Part shown: positions 7,170-55,617 of the stretch, one piece after another
Layout of the letters: every line of letters begins with the position of its first letter
Position numbering within the stretch: the stretch's first letter is position 1
Origin: Bacteroidota bacterium
GTDB lineage: Bacteria > Bacteroidota > Ignavibacteria > OLB7
Length of the DNA: 64,000 nucleotides
Direction of reading: 5' to 3'
Assembly: GCA_018266795.1 (NCBI GenBank)
Contig: JAFDZV010000004.1
Coordinates: 257,273 to 321,272 of the forward strand
Notes under the pieces: generated by a model
Told to the model about the DNA's origin: nothing
Seen by the model: the letters and a program-made list of their open reading frames with translations, nothing else
Database searches by the model: none
Position numbers and translations under genes: made by a program

Positions 7170-7242
7170 GCGCCCGTGGCTCAATGGATAGAGCATCAGA
7201 TTCCGGTTCTGAGGGTTGGGGGTTCGAGTCCCTCCGGGCGCG
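7170..7242 (+). tRNA. tRNA-Arg(CCG)
   Basis: A complete 73-nt cloverleaf. The acceptor stem is GCGCCCG/CGGGCGC, the D-stem GCTC/GAGC, the anticodon stem TCAGA/TCTGA with loop TTCCGGT (anticodon CCG), and the T-loop TTCGAGT. The discriminator base is G and CCA is not encoded. Confidence 0.96.
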
Positions 7243-53469: not shown

Positions 53470-55158
53470 TTACTCCTCCAACAGCCCCAGTGCGCGCATC
53501 GAGCGATGCAGCACCGGCCGTACCAGCCGCTTCACCTTCGGATGCTGTGGCATCCGAAGATATTCCTCGCAGTAGTGAAGCAGGTAGCTTGTGAGCCCTG
53601 CCAGATTGTACTCTGTGGCCGCCTCCTCGAGGTTCCGGAAATATTCCTGCGAACGAATAACCAGCAGACGATAGAGTGCAGCAGCGGCGTCGTTGTCCGG
53701 CGTCTCGAGCCCCGTTCCGGCGTCCGGAGCGATTGCATTGCACCATGCGCCGGCAATCGTCCAGCCGGGATTGTCCGGCTGAACGAGCAGATCCCACGAG
53801 AACTCCATCACCTTCATGTGCGGGCGGCAGAGGAAGAAGCTTTTCACAACGATCGACGCAACCGCGTCGCGGTGAATCCCGCCGCCGGCGCAGTCCACCA
53901 GCGCATCGATCCGGGGAAGCGCAACCAGTTGATCCAGAAGATCGTCAATCAACACCGCCTCGCCGTCGCTCGAACTCACCTTCGCGTCGCGCAGCGTCAC
54001 CATGCTGTGGAACAACTGCACGTGGCGCACATTTGGGCGCTCCGGATGGATCTTCGCCATCAACTCCATATGCATGTCGCTTGCCGCGTGCCACTCCGTG
54101 CCGGCGAGGTCGATATACGTTTCGTTGTCGCGCCGTTCGTCGAGCTGCCGGAAGTATACTCCCAGCAGGCGGGCATGTTCGGTCGGGAAGCCATCGTTCC
54201 TCACGAGGATCATCGTCTCGAACTCCTCGCGCCCGCTGCGGTAGACGATGGTGCCGTCTGCCTCGCGATCCAGCACGCCGAGCGCCAGCCCCCGCTCCAT
54301 CAACGCCGGCACATCCTCCATTGCATCCGCCTCGAAGTCGTGACGCTCGATCGCCACGCCGAACCGGCTCAGGGTACGGGCGTGGCCCTGCATCACCCAC
54401 TCCCGTATGGTACTCCAGAGCAGCCTTGTGTCCGGATCGCCCGCAAGCCAGCCCTGCATCAGCCTGTCCGCCAGGTCGCCGTTGTTCGCCAGTTCGCGCT
54501 CGATCGGGTCGCCGCTGGCGGCCGATGCGCCCTGCGTGTAGTGCTCGCGGATGAACCGTGCGTAGCACTCGCCGATGAAGTGGTCATGCTTGCGGCCAAG
54601 CACGGCAGGGTCATCGCCGTCGTGAAACAGCCTGTAGCCTGCCATCGCCTCGCAGATGTTCCTGCCGATATCGCCAACAAGGCTGCCGCGTTCAACGTCG
54701 GCGCCGGCGGCGCGCATCACGGCCGCCAGCGCATTGCCGATCGACACGTTCCGGAGATGACCGATGTGCAGGGCCTTGGAGGTGTTCGGGCCGGCAAAGC
54801 CGACAACAAATCGCCGGCCGGCGAGCAGATGCGCCGTGGAGAGCCCTGCGTCGCGGGCGTTCGCAATCCGGTCGCCAAGCTCCTCGATAAATTCGTCCGT
54901 GAAGCGAAGCGAAACCGCGGGCCCCTTCGCGCGCAGGTCCGCAACGGACTCATGAGCGGCGATGCGTTCCAGTGTCTCCTTCCCGACCGGCGAGGCGAGC
55001 CACGAGCGGTCACGGAAAAAGAAGCGGGCATCGGCCGGCGCGTTGTCACGGCGACGTATCTCGACTGTCTGGCATCCGGCTTCCTCCGGAATCAATGACT
55101 CCAGCGCCGCGACGAGATTGGCGGAAGTATCTGCTAGCATGGTGGTTGGGCCTTCCAT
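53470..55158 (-). CDS. Divergent arginyl-tRNA synthetase homologue
   Basis: A 562-residue class I synthetase of the ArgRS type. An N-terminal additional domain (about residues 10-105) precedes the catalytic core with PNTSKALHIGHLRNVSIGNA (HIGH at 131-134), ETYIDLAGTEWHA and the KMSKS-equivalent AKVSSSDGEAVLIDDLLDQL (393-397). The DALR-type helical domain at the end is short. Canonical members charge tRNA-Arg with arginine using ATP. The anomalous core around 430-470 (FFLCRPHMKVMEFSWDLLVQ) and the short C-terminus suggest a paralogue. It follows an interrupted tRNA-Lys and the amino-chorismate genes on the same strand. An alternative start is ATG at 55140. Confidence 0.75.
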   Translation of the reverse strand: MEGPTTMLADTSANLVAALESLIPEEAGCQTVEIRRRDNAPADARFFFRDRSWLASPVGKETLERIAAHESVADLRAKGPAVSLRFTDEFIEELGDRIANARDAGLSTAHLLAGRRFVVGFAGPNTSKALHIGHLRNVSIGNALAAVMRAAGADVERGSLVGDIGRNICEAMAGYRLFHDGDDPAVLGRKHDHFIGECYARFIREHYTQGASAASGDPIERELANNGDLADRLMQGWLAGDPDTRLLWSTIREWVMQGHARTLSRFGVAIERHDFEADAMEDVPALMERGLALGVLDREADGTIVYRSGREEFETMILVRNDGFPTEHARLLGVYFRQLDERRDNETYIDLAGTEWHAASDMHMELMAKIHPERPNVRHVQLFHSMVTLRDAKVSSSDGEAVLIDDLLDQLVALPRIDALVDCAGGGIHRDAVASIVVKSFFLCRPHMKVMEFSWDLLVQPDNPGWTIAGAWCNAIAPDAGTGLETPDNDAAAALYRLLVIRSQEYFRNLEEAATEYNLAGLTSYLLHYCEEYLRMPQHPKVKRLVRPVLHRSMRALGLLEE

Positions 55159-55279: not shown

Positions 55280-55617
55280 CGCGCCCGATGGGACTCGAAC
55301 CCACACCTGCGGTTTAAAAGACCACTGCTCTTCTAGGCGTGTACCTTGATAGGGCTACTAACGGAGTTTCCTCGAGCTTCCGGGTAGACCTTTGGTATTG
55401 CAACGACGTTGTCGAAGAGGTTTGTGTAGTTGCGGTACAACTGCCTAGGATTGTGTTGCACCGACGCGCGCGATAGTACCACCCTCTTCTATTGTTTCGT
55501 TGCCACCTCGGATCACAGGAGGCGAACCTCCCTGGGACATTTTTCTGGATGCCCGGCTCCGCTCCGCCTTCCTCCTATCTCAGCGTTTTACCCATTGACC
55601 GGTTGAGCTACAGGCGC
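55280..55617 (-). tRNA. tRNA-Lys(UUU) interrupted in the D-loop
   Basis: The 5' half is 55617-55598: acceptor arm GCGCCTG, TA, D-stem GCTC, loop AACCGGT. The 3' half is 55331-55280: GAGC, anticodon stem GTGGT/ACCGC with loop CTTTTAA (anticodon TTT), T-stem with loop TTCGAGT, acceptor CGGGCGC, discriminator G. Joining them gives a complete 72-nt cloverleaf with all stems paired (one G-U in the acceptor, one in the T-stem). No CCA is encoded, as in the tRNA-Arg at 7170. The 265-nt insert must be removed for function. Confidence 0.8.
55333..55597 (-). other. Putative intron within tRNA-Lys
   Basis: The insert begins after a T (..CCGGT) and can end in a G (..CCTAG), as group I introns require. 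It has a UUCG hairpin (GGAGG TTCG CCTCC, about 55525-55513). A long-range pair, GAGCCGGG (55559-55552) with CCCG-GAA-GCTC (55384-55374), is plausible, as is GGTCTAC (55390-55384) with GTAGCCC (55358-55352) around a GAG GAAA CTC hairpin. This is the P3-P8-P7 topology of group I introns, but the canonical R/S sequences are not recognisable. No ORF inside. Confidence 0.5.

Follow-up and report, generated by a model that had tools for sequence, protein, structure and literature searches.

A tRNA gene with a 265-nt D-loop insert beside an ArgRS-derived synthetase in an Ignavibacteria genome, and its possible reading as a tRNA with an expansion arm

The interrupted tRNA gene

The window analysed here is a stretch of 64,000 nucleotides from a Bacteroidota bacterium of the class Ignavibacteria (assembly GCA_018266795.1, contig JAFDZV010000004.1, positions 257,273 to 321,272), and on its minus strand lies a tRNA gene with a UUU anticodon (55617-55280, around 338 nt for the whole locus) that has a structured 265-nt insert within its D-loop and is followed directly downstream by the gene for a paralogue of arginyl-tRNA synthetase (ArgRS; 562 aa, 53470..55158, minus strand). 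The interruption had been described in an original prediction made from the letters of the window, and its coordinates were right. The 5' part of the tRNA (55598..55617) is 20 nt long and holds the 5' strand of the acceptor stem, U8, the 5' strand of the D-stem and the D-loop as far as GGU. The insert (55333..55597) begins with CAATGG and ends with GCCTAG, and the 3' part (55280..55332) supplies the 3' strand of the D-stem, the UUU anticodon arm, the T-arm, the 3' strand of the acceptor stem and G73. The length first given for the 5' part stands; the 3' part is 53 nt and the rebuilt tRNA 73 nt, rather than 52 and 72 nt.

When joined, the two parts make a complete cloverleaf with anticodon and T-arm that ARAGORN calls tRNA-Lys(ttt), with three G-T pairs within the stems and, in a cloverleaf-constrained fold, 0 bad stem pairs in the tRNA body. 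The Rfam tRNA match covers the 3' part only (55338-55288, 30.1 bits against a gathering threshold of 29). For the 5' part a chance test was made with 20-mers that close the acceptor and D stems and have U8, A14 and GG; these occur three times per 4 Mb of random DNA of the same composition and twice among the 127,962 positions of both strands of the window, the second occurrence being a real tRNA-Arg(ccg) at 7170. The exact ends of the insert are ambiguous, in that several boundary pairs leave a D-loop of 7-11 nt, and the boundary U|CAA...TAG|AA gives a D-loop of 9 nt, equal to that of uninterrupted relatives. A tRNA-His called at the locus under the intron option of ARAGORN is spurious, and a tmRNA was rejected given that the ARAGORN tmRNA scan had no match and a full anticodon arm is present.

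The assembly (5,971,256 bases in 71 contigs, completeness 100, contamination 0.74) has 45 tRNA matches, among them intact genes for tRNA-Lys(TTT) (L004) and tRNA-Lys(CTT) (L003). The original prediction had named an intact second tRNA-Lys(UUU) and a lack of spliced product as jointly speaking against it, and the first of these two exists. The split gene is not the working tRNA-Lys of the cell. In global alignments its closest counterparts among the host's tRNAs are a tRNA-Met (55 shared positions) and tRNA-Lys(TTT) (53), so that a copy of a host tRNA is ruled out against the 41 distinct own tRNA sequences, nor would it simply be a tRNA-Lys copy, since its neighbour is an apparently repurposed ArgRS. 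The codon AAA makes up 18 of 6392 codons in 15 window genes. A degenerate tRNA-Glu(ttc)-like match (L063 147-220, 31.7 bits) was also seen besides the normal tRNA-Glu(ttc), and is perhaps a remnant at an integrated element.

The insert

Folding of the window sequence by itself gives no decisive signal: the insert has a minimum free energy (MFE) of -87.9 kcal/mol with a z of -2.23, 5 of 200 shuffles folding equally well, and the whole gene has a z of -1.61. Both the helix list and the MFE structure have a predicted helix closing the insert, in which UGGGU directly after CAA (55590..55594, minus strand) pairs with GCCUA (55334..55338, minus strand), a single-sequence prediction without comparative support in the window. 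A long irregular hairpin within the insert (55400..55503, minus strand), predicted in the same way, has helices at 95-101/192-198, 109-115/178-184 and 135-143/157-165 in insert numbering. At insert positions 113-121 (window 55477-55485, minus strand), just ahead of the synthetase gene, stands GGGUGGUAC, which resembles the T-box sequence; Rfam has no T-box match there and the 9-base motif is probably a chance one, so a T-box riboswitch was set aside.

The known group I introns of bacterial tRNA genes sit in the anticodon loop. The insert is like them in being a structured RNA that interrupts a tRNA gene with a possible U...G boundary, and differs from them in its D-loop site and in having no Rfam match: at E<=10, over 701 bases, neither group I (RF00028) nor group II, including domain V and D1-D4, was found, which bears out the earlier remark that a standard group I core is not evident. 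A P1-like pairing between CCGGU of the exon and GCCGG at insert positions 41-45, with a U-G wobble, is present in the window and keeps an intron reading alive.

The search for relatives of the insert found no second copy in its own genome and none in 40 related genomes. Matches to the locus occur in 29 of the 41 genomes searched and, beyond the own genome, take in the tRNA 3' part and flank only; on plasmids and in phages there was likewise no relative, the matches being to the tRNA part only.

D-loop inserts at the same site in other tRNAs

Inserts at the same position of the D-loop are found in Actinomycetota. The tRNA-Glu(UUC) of three genomes (G591, G634 and G627) carries a 23-nt insert after GGU, reading CAACGG...CCA before AAGAGC (loci L125 681-776 (-), L135 4-100 (-), L189 (-) and L190 (+)). 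In G634 this armed gene is the only tRNA-Glu(UUC) among the 48 of 48 tRNA matches examined, L245 being uncalled by ARAGORN, and ARAGORN reads the armed tRNA-Glu(UUC) correctly only without its insert, calling it Pro(ggg) otherwise. A much longer insert of 142 nt occupies the site in a tRNA with anticodon UAG in G679. The pattern TAGCTCAAYNGGTCAAYGG is present in 7 of 232 genomes of one Actinomycetota order and its reversed control in 0, and all 7 loci rebuild a tRNA-Leu(tag) once an insert of 130-144 nt is taken out; a viral match to the pattern (L200) was discarded, as ARAGORN finds no tRNA there and the match is by estimate roughly at chance level. The inserts of the 7 genomes and of the tRNA-Glu genes share a layout, with the start GGU|CAAYGG and the order CAAY-helix-AA, and the window insert, which follows directly after GG18-19 U20 and starts CAATGG, fits that start.

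Across the 7 genomes the tRNA part is nearly invariant and the insert drifts, and the insert folds as one closed, branched arm in which 97.0% of cells are paired. Changes on both sides are found in 13 of 39 pairs, a figure that 0 of 500 shuffles reach and that compares with 1-3 in slid controls, in a test with seven related sequences and a structure derived from the same alignment. The outermost helix of the arm is paired in 7 of 7, its ends, CAAC then GGY with GCY, standing directly in the D-loop. The single-sequence stability of these inserts varies, with z from -4.72 to -0.38 for the four folded.

In five of the seven loci, L194 and L196 being the two for which the script gave no start, a frame of the leucyl-tRNA synthetase (LeuRS) type begins 313-425 nt past the D-loop motif on its downstream side. 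A LeuRS family search that covered six of the seven genomes (G674 was left out) found in all six a canonical LeuRS (974-1006 bits over the frame) and a second, divergent LeuRS that by coordinates lies beside the armed tRNA. Divergent second LeuRS genes behind an armed tRNA(UAG) were noted at L193-L199, L261 and L262, and one more divergent LeuRS lies in G675, contig C13. Next to the armed tRNA(UAG) genes lie genes for a GSDH-type dehydrogenase and for a zinc alcohol dehydrogenase, and not a Pab operon of the kind found in the window. The 15 of 46 tRNA matches fetched for G679 also include a tRNA-Leu(tag) and a tRNA-Glu(ttc) that are canonical.

These inserts bear on whether the window gene holds a true D-loop intron, self-spliced or protein-spliced, of which the spliced tRNA with its 9-nt D-loop would serve the ArgRS paralogue. 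The joined exons do form a standard cloverleaf with the same 9-nt D-loop as the uninterrupted cassette tRNAs described below, a U at the 5' boundary and a G at the 3' boundary are possible in the window, the CCGGU/GCCGG pairing is reminiscent of a group I P1, and in four of the seven relatives a GCCAG that could pair with an exon CUGGU stands at roughly the corresponding place. In the relatives, however, the P1-like bases are mostly inside the conserved arm helix, GUUAG (2/7) and GCGAG (1/7) weaken or break the P1-like pairing, and the inserts end in C or T and hence lack a terminal G; searched with Rfam at E<=3, the seven loci match neither group I nor group II, and the window had given no such match. 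Further, the 23-nt hairpin is too small to be a ribozyme, and the tRNA splicing endonuclease of archaea and eukaryotes is not known from bacteria. The reading of the insert as an intron or a new ribozyme class, which the original prediction had put forward, thus loses ground to same-site inserts in seven genomes that have helix-closed ends without terminal G, and to a 23-nt version that occupies the only tRNA-Glu(UUC) of one genome, and we regard an intron as unlikely.

Bacterial rRNA intervening sequences are cut out without ligation, for instance by RNase III, and the inserts have predicted double-stranded rods on which RNase III might act. Excision of this kind could leave a tRNA in two pieces that the acceptor stem and tertiary contacts keep together. 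An insert of 23 nt, as found in an essential tRNA, would be too short for such processing, and this route seems very improbable. As for an assembly artefact at 55333-55597, the genome is a draft in 71 contigs; its completeness and contamination values, and the independent genomes with inserts at the same tRNA position, make that explanation scarcely credible.

The ArgRS paralogue

Against TIGR00456 the window paralogue scores 121.5 bits, below the cut-off of 261.65, which the genome's canonical gene exceeds; the canonical argS lies elsewhere in the genome and reaches 390 bits compared with 119 for the paralogue. An ArgRS tree puts the window protein and 32 further paralogue rows (33 rows, 30 distinct sequences) into a clade that has 100/100 support, stands on a long branch and is separate from canonical ArgRS; the tree program flags long branches with a warning. 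All 10 canonical rows have the YxTxD motif and none of the 33 paralogue rows does, and the EQ located further on, found in 9 of 10 canonical rows, reads EW in 32 of the 33 paralogue rows. These residues hold the guanidinium group of arginine. The HIGH motif is retained in 32 of 33 paralogue rows (L173 deviates) and the KMSKS loop is mostly SSS-like; the window protein itself keeps HIGH and has both YxTxD and EQ replaced. Because HIGH is kept and the residues of the arginine pocket are replaced, the paralogue is probably active, only not on arginine.

In the window's class 1 of 294 genomes has the paralogue, namely its own, and an Actinomycetota-wide sample gave 1 of 396, which was already known. 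The 32 matches among 395 genomes of the window's phylum, besides the own gene, are around 25-31% identical and look like canonical ArgRS, and in the tree ten of the 32 belong to the canonical set or to its kin. Scans of genome and viral contigs with the single protein gave no useful paralogue match, nor did an alignment scan of viral contigs or the plasmid searches. A 434-aa frame with a match to the ArgRS C-terminal domain was noted some 1.6 kb from a tRNA-Arg(UCU) gene (G000:C7:21377-21832 (L068), C7:23463).

tRNA and synthetase cassettes in other genomes

A 212-aa protein encoded upstream of the split tRNA, when used as bait, led to 13 loci, and in two of these (L085, Solirubrobacteraceae, and L088, Patulibacter) the operon also has a homologue of the window synthetase, of around 34-35% identity, with an intact tRNA just before it, the anticodons being UAA and AGU. 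Going by record names, the order of the L085 genome would be Solirubrobacterales. At E<=1e-60 the paralogue is present in 26 of the 232 genomes of this Actinomycetota order, to which the seven genomes with an armed tRNA(UAG) also belong, and ARAGORN finds a tRNA upstream of it in 22 of 30 loci, on the synthetase strand in 20; among the 30, L145 and L146 repeat L088 and L085, and L162 and L174 are pieces around one gene. The anticodons of the cassette tRNAs are TGT (9), TCT (6), TAA (4), AGT (2) and CCT (1). At the TCT and CCT loci no Pab gene lies within reach, and the tRNAs of the Pab-type cassettes are uninterrupted, with the 9-nt D-loop that the window tRNA has when its insert is removed. 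Many of the paralogue and tRNA cassettes (L145-L174) lie in Pab-type operons, with P450 and N-monooxygenase-like genes close by.

A simple codon reassignment was rejected, given that G591 has a second, class II tRNA-Leu(UAA), G634 an ordinary tRNA-Thr(tgt) besides the cassette one, and G679 an ordinary tRNA-Leu(tag).

The recurrence of the cassette also bears on the alternative, raised at the outset, that the gene is a dead tRNA copy broken up by an element inserted into it. Such a history is suggested by the presence of intact tRNA-Lys genes and by the absence of any relative of the insert in the 40 related genomes, on plasmids or in phages. It is weakened by stems that all pair without a break, by the lack of any own tRNA of which the gene would be a copy, by the position of the tRNA in a recurring tRNA and synthetase cassette, and by an insert that is single in its genome whereas mobile elements often have a second copy. 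A dead copy is accordingly quite improbable.

The operon around the tRNA

Upstream of the split tRNA, and on the same minus strand, are the genes from a Pab-type synthase through to the 212-aa protein. They encode a fused aminodeoxychorismate/anthranilate synthase of the PabA-PabB type (59778..61871), a class IV aminotransferase fused to a GNAT acetyltransferase (58152..59717), an amidohydrolase of the histone-deacetylase fold (57034..58257), a chorismate mutase type II domain that is a candidate aminodeoxychorismate mutase and of which the true start is probably further in (56723..57208), and the 212-aa protein (56008..56646), which has no Pfam or NCBIfam match and is conserved in p-aminophenylalanine-type operons.

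Biosynthesis of p-aminophenylalanine uses a Pab-type synthase, a chorismate mutase and an aminotransferase, and the same enzyme classes in the window operon suggest a pathway of this type. To these the window adds the GNAT and deacetylase domains, the 212-aa protein, the tRNA and the synthetase, and its product would be of the aminophenylalanine kind. A similar gene set occurs in Bradyrhizobium with no tRNA or synthetase in reach. There the GNAT domain is fused to PabB (L079 8665-10689), and in the window to the aminotransferase (58152-59717); such fusions may point to N-acetyl protection in the pathway.

Interpretation

On balance we lean towards a dedicated tRNA that has a D-loop expansion arm and is paired with the neighbouring ArgRS-derived synthetase, rather than a tRNA with a self-splicing intron. 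The anatomy of the gene, the cassette, the recurrence of the insertion site and of the tRNA and synthetase pairing, and the covariation of the arm in the relatives are observed; the lack of splicing, the charging partner, the amino acid and the task of the arm belong to the interpretation. We infer that a large and self-contained RNA arm has enlarged the D-loop at position 20/20a, which varies naturally, so that the transcript would fold into a normal cloverleaf with a fifth arm. Since G18-G19 and the D-stem are retained, the L-shape and the acceptor end could form without splicing. The synthetase, lacking the arginine-pocket signature, would most likely load the split tRNA with an amino acid other than arginine, for which the aminophenylalanine-type compound made by the operon is a plausible candidate, and the arm probably keeps the charged tRNA away from the ribosome or flags it for the pathway's own enzymes. 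The cassette anticodons UUU, UAA, UGU, AGU, UCU and UAG are mostly for codons that tend to be rare in GC-rich genes, which would limit the damage if a cassette tRNA strays into translation, and the arm may share this purpose.

Several observations weigh against the expansion arm. Joining the exons yields a D-loop of the usual 9 nt, which is what one would expect of an intron. The window's closing helix, with five base pairs of which two are wobbles, is weak and is missing from the cloverleaf-constrained fold. The unspliced cloverleaf lies just 1.3 kcal/mol above the MFE; of 60 shuffled inserts, 27 match this, which makes it a powerless test. A covariance model of the seven inserts (R1) misses the window insert, its best hit in 1301 bases being 7.5 bits and outside the insert, and so the putative link between the window and the seven genomes is one of position and around six bases. 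Eight of the 30 cassette loci have no tRNA in reach, even by Rfam at E<=5, and the uninterrupted cassette tRNAs imply that the arm is dispensable for the cassette as such.

A wider view can be offered only tentatively, namely that ArgRS and LeuRS paralogues with altered pockets, each beside its own tRNA, form natural orthogonal synthetase and tRNA pairs beyond the genetic code, where in some lineages an arm of up to 265 nt on the tRNA might hold it, once charged, away from the ribosome and pass a non-standard amino acid such as p-aminophenylalanine to biosynthesis.

Relation to known systems and significance

SelA reads the 6-bp D-arm of tRNA-Sec (PMC7609411), and with tRNA-Sec and other non-canonical tRNAs the proposed arm would share the principle of a special D-arm that marks a tRNA for a dedicated pathway; the changes treated there are of a few base pairs, and the inserts described here put 23 to 265 nt into the D-loop. 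In PEARLs and cyclodipeptide synthases, as proposed here, a charged tRNA is used outside translation in a biosynthetic locus. A review of such enzymes (PMC12945691) does not contain the terms searched for a tRNA gene dedicated to the pathway or for a paralogous synthetase, and both are encoded here. Duplicated aminoacyl-tRNA synthetases with new functions are likewise paralogues of changed function (PMC9437257); neither 'ArgRS' nor 'tRNA gene' appears in that review, and in the present case a tRNA gene of its own accompanies the paralogue. A search of titles and the beginnings of abstracts in an open-access library gave no report of such D-loop arms, or of tRNA and synthetase cassettes in such operons.

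Should the insert stay in the RNA, it would far exceed any known tRNA expansion that we are aware of, and the D-loop would be shown able to host a whole RNA domain. Were it spliced instead, bacteria would have a D-loop intron that lacks any known ribozyme core, which would be no less unexpected. The linked synthetase and tRNA cassettes are candidate natural orthogonal pairs that would be directly useful for genetic code engineering, and the proposed explanation, if true, would provide a testable route by which non-standard amino acids are fed into metabolism through tRNA.
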